DNA of 64,000 bases from a virus. Below the pieces are notes generated by a model. That model ran no database searches and was not told the DNA's origin. It saw nothing but the letters and a program-made list of their open reading frames with translations. The position numbers and the translations under genes are program-made. The stretch covers positions 1 to 64,000 of the IMG/VR virus record IMGVR_UViG_3300020463_000018; one strand, written 5' to 3'. Below, piece by piece: positions 6,017-62,716 of the stretch (its first letter is position 1; each line of letters starts with the position of its first letter).

Positions 6017-9000
6017 ATGGCTGTAAGAAGTGTAAGAAATAATAATCCAGGAAACATACGAACAAACTCTACCAAATGGAAGGGTAAGACAGGTGACGAT
6101 GGTTCATTTGTTACGTTTGATACACCTGAAAAAGGTGTTAGAGCAATGGCAAAGACTCTGGAAACTTATCAGAACAAACACGGATTAACAACCACTGCCC
6201 AAATCATTAATCGTTACGCACCAACAAGTGAAAATAATACACAAGCATACATAAATGCAGTTGCCAAATCTGCAGGAGTAGATCCGAATCAAGAAATAGA
6301 TTTAAGTGCAAATCCTGCCTTACATAAAAAATTTATTGCCGCAATGATAAAACACGAAGGTGGAGCCGAAGCCGCTGAATATTTTAGTAAAGGCAATATC
6401 ATAGACAATGGTATTAAAATGGCAGTTGATGAAGATTTCGATAATAAAGAATCACCATTAGATGATACTGAGGCAAACAACGCAATGCTAGAAGCCCAAC
6501 GAGAACAAGAGGCTGAAGGTATAGACAAAGTTGATGAAACTACAGAAGACCAACTAGATCCAGCAGAAAGTAAAAGACAGATTTTAAATAGTGCATCAAG
6601 TCTTGCAGAACTCATTGAAAGGATGGAAAAGAAAAATCTATTCTGGGATAATGAATTAGATAAATTTCAACAATTTACTTACAATTTAGAATTGTTTGTT
6701 GTCAATCAACAAGAAGCCGCAAAATTTCTAGCATATGAAAATATACCAACATTACTGAACGATGTTGTAAATGATGCATGGCCTACTGACCAAATTGAAA
6801 AAATAACTATTGCAAAAACTGGTGTGACTACAGAATTAAACATAACAGATTTAAATGTTCAGTCAACAGGTTACGGAAACGTCAACACTTCAAGAATGGC
6901 AGGAACTGCCATTACATTAGATTTTAATATAACTCAAGTTGGTGGTACATCATTGCCTGATATGTTAAACAATACTGCATTACTATGTGGTTATCCTAAT
7001 ACTGCGTCCGCAGTGTATTTTATGAAAATAAAATTTTTAGGATATGACGATAACGACACAGTAACTAGAAATTTTCCAGCAACTAAAGTGTTGCCTTTTA
7101 GACTTAGAAGTTATAGAAATTTACAAACTACTACAGATGCTAGAGGAACAACAACAAGATTAGAAGGTACTATCATTGCAGATACAGTTATTACTGATAC
7201 GAGTGTAGGACAAGTTGACTACAATTTTGAATTTGATATTAAAGACACACTAGGCGAAACACTTGATAGTTTCTTTGAGGCTCTTAATACGTCAGTAAAA
7301 GACAAAGCTATCATAAGTGATCCTAACTTTATCAATGAATACAAATTTGAATTATCAGATGAATTTAAAGAAAAGTTTGGTCAAGCAGAAATGAAAGATC
7401 CAAATAATCCTAATATGGCATCTGGTAATAATAAAACTGACAAAAAGAAATCAATAAAATTAGGAATGCAAACAGGTGTAATAACTCCTGGTGTATCAAT
7501 TTACAATGCGATAGAAAGCATAATAATGAATGCAAAACAAGTCAGAGAAGAACTTCTTGAATCAAAAGATAAAGAAACAGACTTGTTTAACATAAAACCT
7601 CACGGAGAACCAAAACTAAAAGGTTATAATGTTCTTAGTGCATCGTACTGTTACAATATAACATATTTTATTAATCTACACAAAGTTATATTACCAAAAA
7701 ATCAAATTGATAATGCTAATTTGATTTCTAAAACTGCAGGCCTATTAAGAAACATTTTCTTATCTGGTCGTTGTCATAAAAGATATTACTATACATACAC
7801 AGGTAAGAATGACCAGATAATAGATTTTAATGTTCAACTTACAGAACAGTTACAAAAGTCATACTCACAACCTGGCGATGCATATATGGCAAATGTATTC
7901 TTAGACCAAATAGGTGACTATAGAAAAGAAATTGATGAAAAGGCGTTACAAAAATTAACTGAACTTGAAGCAGAGGCAAAAGTACTACAACAAGAATTTG
8001 ATAAAGAAGAACAAGAAGCCGAACAATTAATTAAAGACTTCAAGCAGATGAATACGAAACTTAAAAACGAATTCATGGATAGATTAGTTAATCAGTACGG
8101 TGTTGGCTTTGGTAAACTTGGCAGACTTGATGCTTCCTATATTAGAAAAGCAGATATAAATCAGATAGGAAGTATTCTTCAAACAGATGCAGAATCAGGA
8201 AATGCTAAGGCTGTAGAGGCATATGAAATATTCAATGATATTCTAAAAGGCGAAACAAGAAAAAACTTTAATAAATTAAACAATCAAGTTAGAGATGCTA
8301 AATTAGAATCAAATGCGGCCTTAAAAAAGTTAGAAGAAAATCAAAGAGAAAATGATAATGTTACTAGAGAGGCTTTAGGTCATTTATTATCTAACAAAGC
8401 ACTAGAGGCAACTTCTGCTATACAAGAAAGTTGGCAAGGACTAGGTCTGTCTGATACTAACGGAGATCCAGGAATTGTTCTAACTGAGGAACTAGACAGA
8501 GAGATTGTAGCAAAATTAAGTTTACAACAATTTAGTGCATTGATGAAAACACTTGTAGAAAATCCAATTAACTTTGCAAGAATAACAAAACCTTTATTAG
8601 CTAACCCAACAAAATTAAATGTAGTCAAACATCCTAATCAAGAAGAAGTAGAATTAGCACAAGAAAAATATTACGAAGGTAAAGCAGGAAACCTAAGTAT
8701 GATAAGAGCAACGATGACAATTAAAGGAGATCCTTTTTGGATTGAAACAATGTTACCAGTTGAAGTTGAAAAGGGAAATTTTGGGACAAAGAATTCAAAT
8801 GAAGATTACAAAATGCATTCTACACAATTTAATGGATATAACTATTGTGCAATTATTGTTGACAAAGCAGAAGGAAACTTCTTAAATGATGCAGATAGAA
8901 TTGGTCAAGATGCGGCAAACTCAGATGGAATAAAAAAGACTAGATTAGAAACTATGATATACATGGTCAATTCAATTACTAGTAGCTTTTCTGGAGGACA

Positions 9001-53334: not shown

Positions 53335-54215
53335 TATAGTTTAACTAAACTAGCAATACCATCTTCAAGAGACTCGGTAGCTTCAAATCCAATGTTTCTA
53401 ATTTTTGTATAGTCAACAAAGTAATCTCTACCATCTTTATCATGTGATAGTTTATCATTAATAATGAGTTCATAATCTACTTTTTGTTTAATAATATTAG
53501 CGATATCTAACTTTGTATGATTAAGTTTTTCATCGCCTACATTCCATTTTTGACCTTTCATAATATCATATTTTTCTAACGCCCATCTAAATGAACGTGC
53601 TAAGTCATTGATACTTAGGAATGTACGTTTAAAATGTTTCTCAAATAATACTAGTTTCTTTTCAGCTATAGCTTTGTATGTAAAGTCGTTTACAAGCAAG
53701 TCTTGTCGTAATCTGTTACTAACACCAAACGCAGTTGCTGGTCTTAGTATTACTGCATCAGAACCTTCTAGATATCTTTCTCCTGCAAGTTTATATACAC
53801 TGTATGTACTGATAGGATTAGTATCACATTCTTCATCACATGTTTTACCAAGTTCACCATATACACTTCCTGTACTTGCATATATAAAAGGTTTATCTTT
53901 TGATGCATCTATTACTCTATTAGTTCCTTCTACATTAACACGATATGCTAAGTCTGGTTCTCTGTCACATGACGGATAACCTACGATACCTGCTAAGTGA
54001 ATAACTGCATCTGCTTTATCAATTACTTTATCTACATATGGATCACAGATATCCATTTTGTGTAAATGAAATTCTTTTCTATCTAATATGTTTAGTATGG
54101 GTTGTACTCCGTACTTCAACCAATCAATACAGATAACCTCATGTCCTCTGTTTAATAGTTGTTCACTTAGTCTACAACCAACATAACCTGCTCCGCCTGT
54201 TATAGCAATTTTCAT
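53322..54215 (-). CDS. NAD-dependent sugar epimerase/dehydratase
   Basis: 297 residues. TGGAGYVG (residues 6-13) is the NAD loop, STGSVYG the Ser/Thr site and YSVYK the catalytic Tyr-Lys pair, so the active site is intact. LRPATAFG and FLSINDLA fit the extended SDR sugar-epimerase group. It likely acts on an NDP-hexose made for the same glycan as the neighbouring C-methyltransferase and cupin. It starts in an ATGA overlap with the methyltransferase gene. Confidence 0.88.
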   Translation of the reverse strand: MKIAITGGAGYVGCRLSEQLLNRGHEVICIDWLKYGVQPILNILDRKEFHLHKMDICDPYVDKVIDKADAVIHLAGIVGYPSCDREPDLAYRVNVEGTNRVIDASKDKPFIYASTGSVYGELGKTCDEECDTNPISTYSVYKLAGERYLEGSDAVILRPATAFGVSNRLRQDLLVNDFTYKAIAEKKLVLFEKHFKRTFLSINDLARSFRWALEKYDIMKGQKWNVGDEKLNHTKLDIANIIKQKVDYELIINDKLSHDKDGRDYFVDYTKIRNIGFEATESLEDGIASLVKLYQAA

Positions 54216-55411
54216 TCTTTATCTCCGTGTACTACACTTACTTCTGGCATTGCGAATATCATTCTGCCGCCATTATTTAAAAACTCTTTTTCTTTTTCAA
54301 CAAACATATCTCTGAAACCAAAGTTAGGTACAAAGAATATATCAGCATTCTTTCTGGCTTCATCTTCACTTACAATAGGTATCTTTGTTCCTACTGTATA
54401 TCTTCCTATTTTATCTGGATGAATTTCAGCCGCTCCTTCAAATAGTCCTTCAAGTTTCCAAAACTGTAACATTGTATTCCCTTTTGTACTTGCTCCATAT
54501 ACATATGCTTTGCTTCCCTGTGCTTTAGCATCTTTTAAAACAGTACGTAATAATGTTCCATTTCTTTCTACATTATACATGAAAGTTTCTAGACTTGCAA
54601 TGTCTTCTGCGTATTCCATACTGCCTTTGTTTAACTTTCTTGCCCATATCTGATAACTTCCACCTTGTATATCGTTTCTTTCAACATGATATATTTCTAA
54701 ACCATTTTGCTCATATAACTTTACTAGACTTTTATAACTGTAATATTCTAAATGCTCATGACATATGTTACCTAAGTCTTTCATTTCAAGCATAGGTGCT
54801 AGTGTCATTAACTGTGCAATGAATATACCATCATCATGTAAACTCTCGTTTACACTATAGATAAACTTATTAGGGTTATCTAAATCATAAAACATTCCTA
54901 TAGCAGTAATAAACTTTGCTTTTCTACCTTCCATTAGTTTGTAATGCCACATATCATTTATAACTGCATCACATTCTTTAGATAGTTTTCTAATTAGATT
55001 AGGTGCTGGTTCACAACCAATTCTATATCTATCAGTTTTTATTCCACTGAGTAATGTTCCATCGTTTGCACCAATGTCTAATACGATATCACCAGGGTCT
55101 GTATGTTCATTACCATAACTAGCAATGTCTAATAGATTATCTTTTAGTTTCTGATTAAGACCACTTTCATACCAATAGTGTTCACCATATAATACTTTGG
55201 GATTTACTGTATGTCTTAGTTGAACTAACTGACATTCCTCACATTGGTCTAATACCATAGGAGCAACGCCACGTGAAAACTCAGGATCTTCTGGAAAATC
55301 ATTTATATGTATGTTACCAAAATCAGCAATATGTTTTATACTGCCTCCACATACCCTACAACTGGTACGTTCATTAAGTATCATCTTACCTGTCTTTTTC
55401 TTTTTAAACAT
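54212..55411 (-). CDS. NDP-hexose C-methyltransferase-like protein
   Basis: 399 residues. An N-terminal zinc set Cys18, Cys21, Cys57, Cys60, a SAM loop LDIGANDGT (111-119), and HEHLEYYS (His218, His220) match the sugar 3-C-methyltransferase family (TylC3/TcaB9), and a C-terminal Rossmann-like half (AYVYGASTKGNT) is also typical. It would add a methyl branch to a keto-deoxysugar nucleotide. Translation is coupled at both ends (1-nt and 4-nt overlaps). Confidence 0.82.
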   Translation of the reverse strand: MFKKKKTGKMILNERTSCRVCGGSIKHIADFGNIHINDFPEDPEFSRGVAPMVLDQCEECQLVQLRHTVNPKVLYGEHYWYESGLNQKLKDNLLDIASYGNEHTDPGDIVLDIGANDGTLLSGIKTDRYRIGCEPAPNLIRKLSKECDAVINDMWHYKLMEGRKAKFITAIGMFYDLDNPNKFIYSVNESLHDDGIFIAQLMTLAPMLEMKDLGNICHEHLEYYSYKSLVKLYEQNGLEIYHVERNDIQGGSYQIWARKLNKGSMEYAEDIASLETFMYNVERNGTLLRTVLKDAKAQGSKAYVYGASTKGNTMLQFWKLEGLFEGAAEIHPDKIGRYTVGTKIPIVSEDEARKNADIFFVPNFGFRDMFVEKEKEFLNNGGRMIFAMPEVSVVHGDKE

Positions 55412-55803
55412 TATTGTACAGTTTCTTTATCTACTCTAGTCAATGGTTCAACACAATCGTCCCACTTCTTTGTAATGAGAGCAATAGCTTTTGAATCAGA
55501 CGTTGGGTAAAATGTATGAGGTGTAAACTTAGGAATAAAAATACAATCACCTGTAGCAACAGGAGTAACCAATTCTTGATAACCTTCTGTCAATTCTGTA
55601 TACACACCACTGCCTTCTACAAACATAATGTATTCATCAAACTCTTTATGATAGTGGTGCCCTCTAACAGAACCTTTGAGAGTTACAATATAACTCCATT
55701 CTTTTATATCTTCTGTCTGAGGATAAAACGTGCTTATTATTCCTCTGCCGTCTTTCACTGTTATTGGATTTATATCTGGATCTAATTTAATAATCTTTTT
55801 CAT
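55411..55803 (-). CDS. Cupin-type sugar epimerase/isomerase (WxcM/FdtA-like)
   Basis: 130 residues. RGHHYHKEFDEYIMFVEG and GDCIFIPKFTPHTF give the two cupin motifs of the small RmlC/FdtA-like enzymes that isomerise or epimerise dTDP-keto-deoxysugars. It is the first gene of a three-gene sugar operon with the C-methyltransferase and epimerase. A late-promoter-like CATAAATA lies about 35 nt upstream on this strand. Confidence 0.72.
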   Translation of the reverse strand: MKKIIKLDPDINPITVKDGRGIISTFYPQTEDIKEWSYIVTLKGSVRGHHYHKEFDEYIMFVEGSGVYTELTEGYQELVTPVATGDCIFIPKFTPHTFYPTSDSKAIALITKKWDDCVEPLTRVDKETVQ

Positions 55804-55845: not shown

Positions 55846-55852
55846 CATAAAA

Positions 55853-55874
55853 AAAGCCCCATTCCTGGGGCTTT
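55853..55874 (-). terminator. Strong rho-independent terminator
   Basis: AAAGCCCCA and TGGGGCTTT form a perfect 9-bp stem with a 4-base loop. On the minus strand seven T follow directly, so it ends the FG-GAP gene transcript and isolates it from the sugar operon. It could also work weakly in the other direction. Confidence 0.9.
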
Positions 55875-55898
55875 CAATTTTGTTATATTTTGTTTAGT

Positions 55899-57338
55899 TT
55901 ACTTCATCCAGTGAACATACTTTGACATTTCTTCTGGCTTCTTAATCTCAAAGTTCATGTTACCTTTGTTTAGAAGAAACAGATTAGCACTTTTGATGTC
56001 CTGTCTTGTGTTAGAACACATTGCGTCCATTAGACCATCACTGTTAACATCAATAAGAATGCTTTCGTTACAGTATGTATTCCAAGGGTGTGAGAATTCA
56101 TCTTTAATCATTGAACCCCAAACTTTAGGATTTTGCCATTCAGCTAACGGCTCAAGTAACATGTTGACAGATTTGATATTGAATTTACCACCAACGTTTT
56201 CATACATAACCCAAGCAGAACCTGTGTAGTAAGGACCTACTGCACTAGTTAGAATATCAACGTCACCATCGTTATCAAAGTCAAATGAAGTCATTTCTGC
56301 CATAGTTGAGAAAGCAAACTTACCATGCATTGCAGGCTTTAGTTCTTGTGCTTTCTTAAACTTACCTTTACCATTACCATATAGTAATACAGTTTTCTCA
56401 TTCTGCTTACTTGACCATTTCTCTGGAGCATACTTGGCATACTTAGGATTGTAGAAGTTGTGTGAAGTAACAACATCTAAGTTACCATCGTTGTTGTAAT
56501 CTCCTACAGTAATTGAAAGACCATTCTGTTTATTACATAGTACAGACTTGAAGTTACCTTTACCATCATTGAAGTGACATACTACACCTTTGAAGTGTGA
56601 AGTAAGAACATCGATGTCACCATCATTGTCAATGTCACCTGCATCAGCACCATGAGAAAATCCCATATATGTTTTGTGCTTACTGTTAGTCAAGAAACCT
56701 GTGTGATAACCTTGAACCCAACTTTTAGGTCCGTTTGAAATCAAAACATTGTTAACACTTTCATATGAGTGTTTACCATTTCTAATTTGAACAGATGCAT
56801 TAGGAACAAAGAAATCATCGATACCGTCACCGTTGAAATCTTCAACTATCATTCTTTGTAGAGTGGCCGCATAACCCCAATCATCAGATGAACCAAAGTC
56901 AAATACTTTATTGTTATTCATCTTGAAGTAATGAAAAGTAGAATCAATACTAAAAGGAATCATAGGATTGTACATTGCATTATCGTCTTTACAACCTTGC
57001 CTTCCTCCTACAGTAGTATATGATCCACCAGTACCACCAGAACCACATCTATGACCTGCACCGAAGCCTAGATAATCTAAATCACCATCACCATTCCAAT
57101 CACCGAATGCTGAACCTGTTTTATAAAAAACACCCTTATCAGAATTGATATGGGCTCCAAACCATTGATTGCTTGGTAATACATACTTACCAATCTTGTT
57201 TTTCATTGTTTCGTCAATGTAATGACCTGACAATGTAACGCCTAAGTCATTAGCTTTTTTCTCTACACTATTAGCAGATGCAGTTGATATCGTACCAACT
57301 ACAACAAGTATACTAGCGATAAGTGTTTTGATATTCAT
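55899..57338 (-). CDS. Exported FG-GAP/VCBS repeat protein
   Basis: 479 residues from the ATG at 57338, which has AGAGAGG upstream. A signal peptide is clear: MNIKTLIASILVVVGTISTA then SAN. At least six calcium-binding FG-GAP/VCBS repeats follow: DWNGDGDLDYLGFG, DFNGDGIDDFFV, DIDNDGDIDVLTSH, DYNNDGNLDVVTSH, DFDNDGDVDILTSA, DVNSDGLMDAMC. These predict a seven-bladed beta-propeller outside the cytoplasm that may bind carbohydrate or protein. It has its own sigma70 promoter and its own strong terminator, like a moron cassette. Signal-peptide export would be unusual for a tail protein. Confidence 0.85.
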   Translation of the reverse strand: MNIKTLIASILVVVGTISTASANSVEKKANDLGVTLSGHYIDETMKNKIGKYVLPSNQWFGAHINSDKGVFYKTGSAFGDWNGDGDLDYLGFGAGHRCGSGGTGGSYTTVGGRQGCKDDNAMYNPMIPFSIDSTFHYFKMNNNKVFDFGSSDDWGYAATLQRMIVEDFNGDGIDDFFVPNASVQIRNGKHSYESVNNVLISNGPKSWVQGYHTGFLTNSKHKTYMGFSHGADAGDIDNDGDIDVLTSHFKGVVCHFNDGKGNFKSVLCNKQNGLSITVGDYNNDGNLDVVTSHNFYNPKYAKYAPEKWSSKQNEKTVLLYGNGKGKFKKAQELKPAMHGKFAFSTMAEMTSFDFDNDGDVDILTSAVGPYYTGSAWVMYENVGGKFNIKSVNMLLEPLAEWQNPKVWGSMIKDEFSHPWNTYCNESILIDVNSDGLMDAMCSNTRQDIKSANLFLLNKGNMNFEIKKPEEMSKYVHWMK

Positions 57339-57368
57339 AATTACCTCTCTCATTTCAGTTATACGATT

Positions 57369-57396
57369 AATATAACACGAATCGTGGATTTGTCAA
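57369..57396 (-). promoter_or_regulatory. Sigma70-type promoter with dyad spacer for FG-GAP gene
   Basis: Minus strand: TTGACA (57396-57391), 16-base spacer, TATATT (57374-57369), extended -10 TG-n. The spacer holds CACGATTCGTG, an inverted repeat around one base, also present in the promoter at 59646-59673. Confidence 0.8.
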
Positions 57397-57408: not shown

Positions 57409-58182
57409 TTATTTTCGCTGAATATCTTCTTCTTCACATTTATCACCATATTGTACTTCTAATATGTGTGCTGGTTTTTTGCCGATATTTGATGTTTTAT
57501 GCCATATTTCTTGGGGTATTGTAAACGTATCGTGGGCTGTAAGATATAGGGATTCTTTATGGTCTGCAAATTCTAGTTCTATCATGATATCTCCTTCTAG
57601 GATATACCAAAACTCACTACGAAATATATGCTTTTGATTTGATAAACTCTTGCCTGGATTGATAACTAGTTCTTTTACCTTTTGCCCAACCCTAGGTTGT
57701 TTATCATCTAGTACTCTCCAATATCCCCAGGTTCTGTGAGTTCTTTGAGTTTTCCATTCATCAAGTATCCAACTACTTGAGTTTAGTTTACTATCACCAC
57801 CTACACCAAATTCAAACTCTACCCATGGATAGTTATTATATAATCTATATTCAGGAGTCCATGCTTGGCTTCTATCACCACCATTAGCAAATATAAGTTT
57901 ATCATCTTTGTCTAACGTAGAACCTACTTTATAGATTGCATGGTTGGCAGTATCATCAGTATCATCAAAGTCTACAACTTTATCTACCATTTTTAATGAT
58001 TCAATAATAGATTTTCGTTCTTTGAAATTCATAAATGGCTTACCCTTTTTACGAGTTAGCCAATCATCTGAATTGAGACCTACAACTAATTCATCACCGA
58101 AACTTTTCGCTGAGTTGAAATATTCAATATGTCCTGAGTGTATCGGGTCGAACCCTCCAGTTACTAAAACTATACGTTTCAT
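57409..58182 (-). CDS. Cytidylyltransferase-like domain fused to cupin
   Basis: 257 residues. GGFDPIHSGH (residues 9-18, HxGH type) and VGLNSDDWLTRKKG place the first 140 residues in the nucleotidyltransferase family of RfaE/TagD type, which activates sugar or polyol phosphates with CTP or ATP. Residues about 185-250 form a cupin (SEFWYILEGDIMIEL; IPQEIWHKTSN; GKKPAHILEVQYG) like the C-terminal part of type II mannose phosphate isomerases. The fusion would make and prepare an activated sugar. It lies 4 bases downstream of speD in a minus-strand operon. Confidence 0.75.
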   Translation of the reverse strand: MKRIVLVTGGFDPIHSGHIEYFNSAKSFGDELVVGLNSDDWLTRKKGKPFMNFKERKSIIESLKMVDKVVDFDDTDDTANHAIYKVGSTLDKDDKLIFANGGDRSQAWTPEYRLYNNYPWVEFEFGVGGDSKLNSSSWILDEWKTQRTHRTWGYWRVLDDKQPRVGQKVKELVINPGKSLSNQKHIFRSEFWYILEGDIMIELEFADHKESLYLTAHDTFTIPQEIWHKTSNIGKKPAHILEVQYGDKCEEEDIQRK

Positions 58183-59645: not shown

Positions 59646-59673
59646 AATATAGCACGATTCGTGATTTTGTCAA
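59646..59673 (-). promoter_or_regulatory. Sigma70-type promoter with dyad spacer for speD operon
   Basis: Minus strand: TTGACA (59673-59668), 16-base spacer, TATATT (59651-59646), TG-n before the -10. The spacer holds CACGAATCGTG, the same dyad as in the FG-GAP promoter. The -10 box ends 8 bases before the ATG, so the leader would be very short or absent. Confidence 0.75.
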
Positions 59674-59689: not shown

Positions 59690-60703
59690 ATGCAAAAACA
59701 GATAGATTGGGACAATGGCGAAGAAAACTTTAGGGATTTAGGTTTAACCTGGATGTCTCTGTATAATCGTATGAACTTTTGTACAGACTATCCAAATATG
59801 TCACACAATGAAATTCAAGACCTTACCCGTGACCAATTGGAAGTTATTAATCCAACAGGGTTGACAGATAAAGTTTATATCAAACAGTTTTATAAAACTT
59901 TGCCAGACTACTGGAGATTTCATAAAGATGAAGTCAATTACAAGTTTAACTCAGATGGGTTTAGAGCGCCTGAGTTTGACAAAGTTGATTGGAAAAATAG
60001 TTATGTTATATTAGGTTGTAGTCATGTGTTTGGCACAGGCAATCCAGATAACGAAACCATAGGTGCTTACATATCAAATAAATTGAATGAGCCAGTTATA
60101 AATCTAGGTGTTGGTGGAACAGGATTTGAAACGACATATAATAACTTGTTAAAGCAAATACATACATATGGGTTTGCTAAAGGATACTTTATTCATTGGA
60201 GTTATGCATCAAGAAAAATGTTAACTTATAATCATACAAGCGAAGAAGGCAAAAAGTCGTTTTGGAATAGACGAGATTATATTCCAGCTAATGCTCCAAA
60301 GGACTTATACTCAAAAGATTTCTTAACTGATTTGATGTATAGAAGAAACATTATTCAACATAGTGTTAGACAAATCTTAAAGGGCATACCTTATGCAGAT
60401 ATACAAGACCCACGTGACTGGTGTATTAGAAGTGAAAAAGATATAAAGAGAACTGAAGGCGAAGACAAATATTCTATAACTATTAAGGTACCTACTCCTG
60501 TGTTAGGAGAGTTTGATGGTGTTCATGGTGGATATATTAAATGGGATCAATATCCTGTTGCATATAAAAAGTGGTGGCTTAATGAAATACAGGCAAGAGA
60601 TATTAAAAAATACAATCCCCAAACTGGACCTAGAGGTGGGCATTGGGGTAGACTAGTGAACAAATATATAGCGGAGCATTTAATTGATAAAAGCAGGCAA
60701 TAA
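59690..60703 (+). CDS. SGNH-hydrolase-like protein, tandem copy 1
   Basis: 337 residues. ILGCSHVFGTG (Gly109-Cys-Ser111-His112) is the nucleophile block, VINLGVGGTGFET the Gly block, and GPRGGHWG near the C-terminus has the likely catalytic His. A conserved N-terminal region (NFRDLGLTWMS; YKFNSDGFRAPEFDKVDWKN) is shared by all three tandem copies. Cytosolic; it may be an acyl esterase or acyltransferase. It is not clear that the GCSH form is active, since Asp of GDS is Cys. The next gene overlaps by 20 nt. Confidence 0.65.
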   Translation: MQKQIDWDNGEENFRDLGLTWMSLYNRMNFCTDYPNMSHNEIQDLTRDQLEVINPTGLTDKVYIKQFYKTLPDYWRFHKDEVNYKFNSDGFRAPEFDKVDWKNSYVILGCSHVFGTGNPDNETIGAYISNKLNEPVINLGVGGTGFETTYNNLLKQIHTYGFAKGYFIHWSYASRKMLTYNHTSEEGKKSFWNRRDYIPANAPKDLYSKDFLTDLMYRRNIIQHSVRQILKGIPYADIQDPRDWCIRSEKDIKRTEGEDKYSITIKVPTPVLGEFDGVHGGYIKWDQYPVAYKKWWLNEIQARDIKKYNPQTGPRGGHWGRLVNKYIAEHLIDKSRQ

Positions 60704-61694
60704 ATTTAAAAGCAGAATTATAAACTTCTATGATAGACTAGAAGAATTAGAGTTTAGAGATATACCTTTAAACTGGATGTCTAATATCAATAGTCATAAC
60801 TTTGCAGAAGAACACCCTGATGTAGAAAAGCATGTTCCTTTCTTTGAATACTCTTCCGATACAAAAGAAAACTTTGAACATATAATGGGTAAGATGCCAA
60901 ACTACTGGTGTTGGCAAACAGATACAATAGATTATTATATAAACCGACAGGGATTTAGAAACCCATTTAACTTTGATAATGTAGATTGGAAGAACAGTTA
61001 TGTTCTATTTGGTTGCAGTATGATAGCTGGTGTTGGTAATAAACTAGAAAATACTGTAGGTCATTATGTACAAGAAGAACTTGATGCTCCTGTAATCAAT
61101 ATGGGATCAGCAGGTGGCTCCGCTGAAACTGTATTCAATAATCTTATGAAGATTGTAGAAGAACACGGTGTTCCAAAAGGTTGCTTGTTCTTATGGCCTC
61201 AAAGTACTAGACAGTTAGATGAATTAGTATACAAAGAACATTCAGAGTTTGAAAACGATTGGCGTAGAGTAGATGTACATCCAGCAATAGCAAATACACA
61301 TCACGTATCTTATTATACTTCCTTTTACCGAAAACACCTTATTCGCCACACTGTACGTGCTTTGTTAAAAGGTACATACATGTCTGAAATAACTGATAAT
61401 GAAATATGGGTTGCAGATGGTGATAAGCCTGCTGAATATAATGATAGAGGAATGTTAGTAATGTATCAACCTCATCCTGAGTGGTTACACGAAGATATGA
61501 TAATGACTCAAGGTTACTTCCCTAACAAATGGCAAAAGATAAATCAAAGAAGTAAAGAATGGTTCTTTAATGAGTTTACTGCTAGAGATATAGAAGATTA
61601 TAGTATACACAATGGACCCAATGGCGGACATCATGGGCCGTTTGTTAACAGAGCGATTGCTAAAACTTTAGTACAAAGATTGAAAAAGATATGA
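60684..61694 (+). CDS. SGNH-hydrolase-like protein, tandem copy 2
   Basis: 336 residues. The start is a TTG at 60684 with GGAG upstream; the next ATG is 32 codons in and would cut the shared N-terminal region. LFGCSMIAGVG (Cys111-Ser112-Met113) keeps Ser but has Met where copies 1 and 3 have His. VINMGSAGGSAETVFNN and GPNGGHHGPFVNRAIAK are conserved. It overlaps copy 1 by 20 nt and copy 3 by 4 nt. Confidence 0.65.
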   Translation: MIKAGNKFKSRIINFYDRLEELEFRDIPLNWMSNINSHNFAEEHPDVEKHVPFFEYSSDTKENFEHIMGKMPNYWCWQTDTIDYYINRQGFRNPFNFDNVDWKNSYVLFGCSMIAGVGNKLENTVGHYVQEELDAPVINMGSAGGSAETVFNNLMKIVEEHGVPKGCLFLWPQSTRQLDELVYKEHSEFENDWRRVDVHPAIANTHHVSYYTSFYRKHLIRHTVRALLKGTYMSEITDNEIWVADGDKPAEYNDRGMLVMYQPHPEWLHEDMIMTQGYFPNKWQKINQRSKEWFFNEFTARDIEDYSIHNGPNGGHHGPFVNRAIAKTLVQRLKKI

Positions 61695-62716
61695 TCCATA
61701 AGAAAGTAAGAGATAATATAAATTGGGATAAGCCAGAAGAATACGAAAACTTAGGTATAAACTTTTTTCAAGTTGGTCAACCTAACAAAACGATAGCATT
61801 TACTGGTCCACAAGAACAACTAGAGTTCACACAGGCTCTGGCTATGGCAGAGTTAATCGATTGGCGTTATAGAAAAGAACAGATATCTTATACATTTAAT
61901 ACAGAAGGATTTAGAAATGATTTCGATTTTGATAATGTAGACTGGCACAAATCTGTTGGTGTAATTGGTTGTAGTCATATATTCGGTAAAGGTGTTAATC
62001 AAAGACATACAGTACCTAGCTATATAGGTAAAGAGTTAGAAATGCAAACAGTTAATCTAGGCTGTGAGGGTGCAAGTATAAGAACAGTATTCAATAATGT
62101 AATACATCTTATAGAGAAGTATAATCCAAAAGCAATAGCTATACTATGGCCTCGTATCAATAGAGTATCGTTATCTTATAAATGGGATACTATAGAAAAC
62201 GGTTGGAGTAATCTAGATATGACTGGTACAGAAAAAGAAGTCAGTTTGTTTAGACCTAAAGAACCTGACCAATATGGATTGATATCTAACGAAGAAGTTC
62301 AATTAAGATTCAGAGACCTATGGCCAAGACTTGATGAAAGTCACTTTATAGAAAATCAAGACATGGTATATCAATTAAACTTGTATAGACAAACTCTAAA
62401 ACTGTTGGCACATGCAAAAAATATAGACCTTTATGACTTTGCTCTTGATAAGATAGTTGGTAAAAAGATGAATCAACTAGACCAAGTTAAGGCTCCTTAC
62501 CCTGAGTTTATGAAAGCAAACTTTAATTATCGAGGTGACTTTGATAAACAAAATCCAGGCTGGATTAATATGCCTAAAGAACATAGACAATGGTGGGTTG
62601 ATAATGTTTGTGCTAGAGATATTGTATCAATAAAAGACGGACCTGCTGGTGCTCATTTTGGGCCAGTACTGAATAAAGCAATAGCTAAATTGATTATTGA
62701 GAATAAATTAGTGTAA
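61691..62716 (+). CDS. SGNH-hydrolase-like protein, tandem copy 3
   Basis: 341 residues. VIGCSHIFGKG (Cys94-Ser95-His96), TVNLGCEGASIRTVFNN and DGPAGAHFGPVLNKAIAK follow the same order as copies 1 and 2. The ATG lies in a 4-nt overlap with copy 2. The copies are clearly paralogous but diverged, so the duplication is old or selection has driven different substrates. Its 3' end overlaps the convergent gene by 9 nt. Confidence 0.65.
   Translation: MIHKKVRDNINWDKPEEYENLGINFFQVGQPNKTIAFTGPQEQLEFTQALAMAELIDWRYRKEQISYTFNTEGFRNDFDFDNVDWHKSVGVIGCSHIFGKGVNQRHTVPSYIGKELEMQTVNLGCEGASIRTVFNNVIHLIEKYNPKAIAILWPRINRVSLSYKWDTIENGWSNLDMTGTEKEVSLFRPKEPDQYGLISNEEVQLRFRDLWPRLDESHFIENQDMVYQLNLYRQTLKLLAHAKNIDLYDFALDKIVGKKMNQLDQVKAPYPEFMKANFNYRGDFDKQNPGWINMPKEHRQWWVDNVCARDIVSIKDGPAGAHFGPVLNKAIAKLIIENKLV

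Follow-up and report, generated by a model that had tools for sequence, protein, structure and literature searches.

A fixed slot for exchanged FG-GAP propellers, related to a protein family of HIMB59-order bacteria, in a marine phage

Marine alphaproteobacteria of the streamlined order HIMB59 carry a chromosomal family of presumably exported FG-GAP proteins, two types of which offer the closest comparisons to the phage protein described here. Type A lies in the gene order rho - FG-GAP - mnmE - mnmG - rsmG. Our protein is collinear with it over the full length and has the same loops, with 63 to 65% identity to the nearest type-A proteins, but the bacterial gene is chromosomal, has no noted phage promoter or terminator and begins with a different signal-peptide sequence. 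The phage gene does not lie between rho and mnmE, and we regard it as a phage-borne relative of type A, not as an orthologous locus. Type B, which is linked to the gene for RseP, belongs to the same family and is the nearest bacterial match of three sister phage alleles (L083, L084, and L167), but it is only 34% identical to our protein. More distantly, the lectins PVL and AAL2, CRTAC1, UmbA4, and the heads of integrin alpha chains share the propeller fold and calcium-type loops, but sequence identity in the fold alignments is only 9 to 16%. With respect to function, the protein would resemble P22 SieA and the Ltp lipoproteins if it is an exported phage product that acts in the host envelope; these come from temperate phages according to the abstracts that describe them. 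For the present protein, exclusion is a proposed role.

The gene lies in a 64,000-nucleotide stretch of viral DNA (the window) taken from a virus record of 66,382 bases. The original prediction described a promoter-gene-terminator layout here, and all three parts are in place, as follows.

55849-57396, minus strand: FG-GAP cassette, with promoter, gene, and terminator all confirmed in place
55899-57338, minus strand: gene for an exported FG-GAP beta-propeller of 479 aa (Pfam, signal peptide, loops, and predicted fold)
57344-57350, minus strand: Shine-Dalgarno sequence AGAGAGG, kept in relatives
57273-57338, minus strand: signal peptide MNIKTLIASILVVVGTISTASA, cleavage site placed by eye
55849-55874, minus strand: terminator, 9-pair stem plus T7 (sequence and RNA fold)
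57369-57396, minus strand: promoter, TTGACA, 16-base spacer, and TATATT preceded by TG (conservation and phage-wide class)
57376-57386, minus strand: spacer palindrome CACGATTCGTG, also present in the promoter at 59646-59673; possible operator
55853-57310, minus strand: exchanged block, starting near codon 10 and including the terminator stem; relatives differ here although their flanks are alike; borders approximate
57409-58182, minus strand: upstream neighbor, a nucleotidyltransferase fused to a mannose-6-phosphate-isomerase-type cupin
55411-55803, minus strand: downstream neighbor, a cupin, used as the anchor for testing the site in other phages
54212-55411, minus strand: C-methyltransferase adjoining the cupin; co-occurs with the propeller gene (7/7 versus 0/19)

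The open frame begins at 57353, but ATG 57338 is the preferred start because AGAGAGG lies at 57350 to 57344 and because this start is common to all three sisters. The first codons of the signal peptide are like those of the phage relatives and unlike those of the bacterial homologs. Codon use is closer to phage than to bacterial genes, which for a single gene carries little weight. The perfect 9-bp stem followed by seven T was also confirmed (three of the T lie within the stem); its RNA fold reached -16.2 kcal/mol (z, -3.19), and 1 of 200 shuffles was as stable.

The FG-GAP identity of the product is firm, with a match to PF13517 (FG-GAP_3) at an E value of 1.8e-25 and 89.7 bits against a curated cutoff of 26.9. 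The protein has six loops of the DxDxDGxxD type and six cysteines; it is thus of the calcium type by sequence, as had been claimed, and calcium binding is predicted. The claimed export signal is also present: the best 12 residues of the signal peptide have a hydropathy of 2.8, while the remainder of the protein does not exceed 0.93. A structure model (pLDDT, 83.9; pTM, 0.86), which superseded an earlier one with a pLDDT of 63.5, predicts a propeller. Foldseek with this model returned CRTAC1, the GlcNAc lectins PVL and AAL2, UmbA4, and integrin heads (best E value, 1.7e-9), and a structure comparison returned many propellers, with Z up to 20.3; from these matches the fold is clear. VCBS, integrin, and tachylectin propellers have been assigned to one supercluster (PMC8023676). 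Two phage proteins of like fold in BFVD (E < 1e-12), one of them named for VCBS repeats, provide a precedent for phage propellers of a similar kind.

We considered whether the protein might be a GlcNAc lectin and rejected this reading, as the likeness lies in the fold only. The AAL2 pocket motif (N/D-x5-G-x-W-x4-H, from the pocket residues given in PMC4483166) has no match in our protein, which contains a single W-x4-H, at residue 207. PVL-type lectins were also absent among the 50 matches listed by VIA-align.

In a Gram-negative cell, Sec signals direct proteins into the periplasm. The related alleles also point to the envelope: an N-terminal PG_binding_1 domain is found in sister L167 and in the bacterial protein L008 (E values of 1.3e-6 and 3.6e-7, respectively), and the phage allele L173 begins with an apparent lipobox (by eye). 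Given the Sec signal and the peptidoglycan-binding domain of L167, the suggestion that the propeller coats the host surface is doubtful as worded. A role in the envelope or in glycan binding is plausible, and it is possible that the protein blocks other phages.

The cassette has a promoter of its own, as predicted, and this promoter is kept in the three sisters. It is not autonomous: its class is phage-wide and has many copies. The window has four sites matching TTGACA-N12-18-TATAWT where 0.85 would be expected, a count that none of 100 shuffles reached, while weak promoter-like sites between 50000 and 64000 were not enriched over chance (63 seen, 69.9 expected). With up to three mismatches allowed, the class itself, TTGACA-N6-CGAWTCGTG-N-TATAKT, is found 6 times in the window's record and 7, 9, 17, 3, and 6 times in the relatives G164, G165, G166, G167, and G168, 8 of the 17 copies in G166 being exact. 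At this threshold, G169 and G170, which carry L173 and L174, had none. Copies lie on a single strand within each contig, and the reversed pattern, used as a control, gave none in any of the eight contigs. The promoter spacers contain a palindrome, CACGAWTCGTG (57376-57386 and 59651-59661), that promoters in these phages have in common and to which a phage regulator may bind.

Other members of the class indicate the company that the propeller keeps. In G166, exact copies precede a secreted polysaccharide lyase (PF14099) and an AAA protein, and a copy with one mismatch precedes a cell-wall hydrolase (PF07486); in G164, an exact copy precedes an ORF whose start nearly equals that of the lyase. 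The lyase family was found in four of the eight contigs, several of which are short fragments. These four include the window's record, where the lyase gene lies just past the window (64226-65218, minus strand) and encodes an N-terminal hydrophobic stretch; no class promoter stands directly ahead of it there. PF14099 is also present in 74 of 162 HIMB59-order genomes.

The phage itself is probably large. Its SbcC-like protein is closest (51%) to those of PA5oct-like Pseudomonas phages, whose genomes measure about 286 kb, and a syntenic relative (L085) comes from a 342,607-base contig, from which we infer that the window phage is equally large. The propeller protein had no match in INPHARED (tblastn), PHROGs, NCBIfam, or PDB sequences, nor in IMG/VR by single sequence or by alignment, and the L084 and L173 alleles had none in INPHARED. 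Relatives were reached only via neighboring genes (the upstream gene, an epimerase, and the cupin). A further alignment scan returned the contig of L083 again and seven distant loci (L321 to L327; 26 to 34% identity), which we left out of our conclusions.

Among 26 cupin loci, the C-methyltransferase lies directly behind the cupin in 7, and all 7 have an FG-GAP gene in front; the remaining 19 have none. At 77 of the 80 listed loci with the nucleotidyltransferase-cupin gene, the gene order differs. The seven IMG/VR contigs with the cupin/C-methyltransferase pair represent five distinct alleles (L083, L084, L167, L173, and L174): L085 differs from L084 at 4 of 20,771 compared positions, and L168 has the same gene map as L167. 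L174/L259 has one ORF between the FG-GAP gene and the cupin. With the window, this makes six alleles, all of which end in a hairpin and a T run, and each of the eight contigs has a single FG-GAP gene of this kind (that of L167/L168 is reported in two pieces). None of the seven contigs offered an empty site. The check proposed at the outset, presence or absence of the cassette in close relatives, thus found a propeller gene in all seven; the variable part is the identity of the propeller.

That variation is confined. Between the window and the three sisters, the flanking genes are mostly 70 to 88% identical and the promoter and start region about 65 to 75%, but identity over the stretch that starts near codon 10 and includes the terminator stem falls to mostly 28 to 62%, and lower still at the extra domain of L167 and at the longer C terminus of the sisters; directly behind the terminator it is back up to 79 to 86%. 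At the protein level, the neighbors are 69 to 91% identical and the propellers 33 to 36%. In a tree of 41 rows (56 were gathered, and 15 were merged as repeats over the compared part), the window allele fell within the HIMB59 type-A clade (support, 95/86), the three sisters grouped with type B (98/96), and L173/L174 were placed elsewhere on long branches. Forcing the window and the three sisters into one clade cost 228.9 log-likelihood units (AU test, p 4.7e-55). On a reduced set that lacks signal peptides and eight long or distant rows, the cost was 228.4 units (p 8e-46), and the window's type-A fork had support of 83/82 and 89/89 in a tree for which the tool warned that long branches meet. 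The AU tests reject a single phage origin of the four propeller alleles (p 8e-46 or lower). For the pair L083 and L084, propeller dS is 0.83 and dN 0.207, against 0.16 to 0.52 and 0.011 to 0.037 for five neighbors; with both rates raised, the slot also recombines or evolves fast between close sisters.

The bacterial kin were found by a pattern-based scan of GTDB genome contigs, of which the best 80 loci were kept. Among these, 14 were full length or nearly so, with 50 to 65% identity to the window protein; the other 66 (L016 to L081) were partial, weak FG-GAP matches (23 to 43%) and were dropped. At 13 of the 14 loci (L008 is the exception), the FG-GAP gene lies directly after rho and is followed by mnmE and mnmG, and by rsmG and a parA-like gene where the contig extends. 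Gene names were assigned by NCBIfam for L003 only (parA-like below the cutoff) and by eye from near-identical protein starts elsewhere. At 3 of the 13 (L002, L005, and L010), a reversed ORF of 428 to 444 aa lies between the FG-GAP gene and mnmE. One locus, L014, comes from the single-cell genome AG-891-K05, listed as a HIMB59-order reference genome in PMC10734472, and on this basis the kin are assigned to the order. A search of that order gave some match in 53 of 162 genomes, including all 13 rho-linked ones, and at least 50% identity in 19; the other 109, many of them incomplete, had none. The type-B paralog (L224) lies one ORF away from the RseP gene and is 46 to 53% identical to the sister phage proteins. 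We also observed a third paralog in the order (L227, L228, and L230 to L232), of about 665 aa with a C-terminal extension, beside membrane-protein-like ORFs.

At the level of sequence, then, the anatomy of the cassette, its fixed slot, the exchange of its contents, its kinship with a bacterial family, and its promoter class were all established. The fixed chromosomal site of the bacterial genes suggests that transfer ran from bacterium to phage. A top match of only 64% among bacteria speaks against recent transfer and leaves HIMB59 unproven as the host. By title, we found no literature on a phage infecting HIMB59, and none on this subject under FG-GAP or VCBS plus phage.

Our preferred reading, to which we give a probability of about 0.5, is that a fixed, regulated slot exports exchanged propellers of the HIMB59 family, likely to remodel or occupy the envelope against competing phages. 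The cassette would be one slot in a regulated, envelope-directed set of genes in this large marine phage. The probable host is an alphaproteobacterium from this order or close to it, and the promoter type suggests early expression. The genomic site and the phage-type promoter, ribosome-binding site, and first codons stay constant, while recombination has swapped the mature, Sec-exported calcium-type propeller for other paralogs drawn from the order's own exported family, an exchange that would follow host type. The product would presumably fold in the periplasm, where its six conserved cysteines and calcium loops would serve it, and may attach to the same envelope glycan or partner as its host counterpart, acting beside the exported lyase and (in a relative) the cell-wall hydrolase of the same promoter class. 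As decoy, remodeler, or superinfection-exclusion factor, it would most likely benefit the phage by changing or filling the envelope and so keeping competitors out. A narrower version, in which a recombined stand-in for a host paralog tracks the host and titrates a receptor, anchor, or glycan needed by rival phages, seems to us unlikely.

The main rival is that the phage copy is a plain stand-in that only maintains an envelope function (as a periplasmic scaffold, or by binding calcium or glycans) during the shutoff of host synthesis and has no antiphage role. Full-length kinship to chromosomal proteins and the single copy in each phage contig favor this, but upkeep needs no exchange between paralogs, and the function looks dispensable given the many order genomes without a match (109 of 162, many incomplete); we consider this reading unlikely, though it deserves to be taken seriously. 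A part in the virion, such as a tail or fiber tip that binds host glycans, is less likely than the stand-in and in our view improbable. Propellers often bind glycans, and phage propellers are represented in BFVD; against this, the protein has a signal peptide, its bacterial homologs lie among housekeeping genes, and the gene is far from, and on the opposite strand to, the large ORFs at 6017 to 33667 (putative tail genes by size and place).

The original prediction had favored a moron, a cassette gained independently with its own promoter and terminator and present or absent at the site. Its layout and the lack of an FG-GAP gene at 19 of 26 cupin loci agree with this, but promoters of the same class occur across the phage and all seven contigs with the same neighbors carry the propeller; with no empty site among the relatives seen, the moron reading fails, and we hold out little hope for it. 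A last alternative dispenses with exchange and posits one phage gene that diverges very fast under diversifying selection. Although dN/dS between sisters is higher for the propeller (0.18 to 0.25) than for five neighbors (0.02 to 0.09), synonymous divergence between L083 and L084 is raised as well, and the single clade that this scenario needs costs 228 log-likelihood units with both data sets and fails the AU tests under the model that we applied, which makes it very improbable indeed.

A fixed phage slot with exchanged paralogs of one bacterial family suggests that FG-GAP proteins have a part in the encounter of phage and host, and it may serve as a marker linking large marine phages with hosts of the HIMB59 type. 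It also opens the way to a direct test of a role for these propellers in phage entry or exclusion. Two minor observations concern the surroundings of these genes. SGNH-hydrolase-like ORFs (by eye, without Pfam support) occur near FG-GAP genes in the window (59690-62716) and at L174, L322, L324, and L325. On other phage contigs (L260 to L263), a distant cupin is followed, after a few genes, by a lipoprotein-like ORF of 794 aa that has three FG-GAP-type loops.
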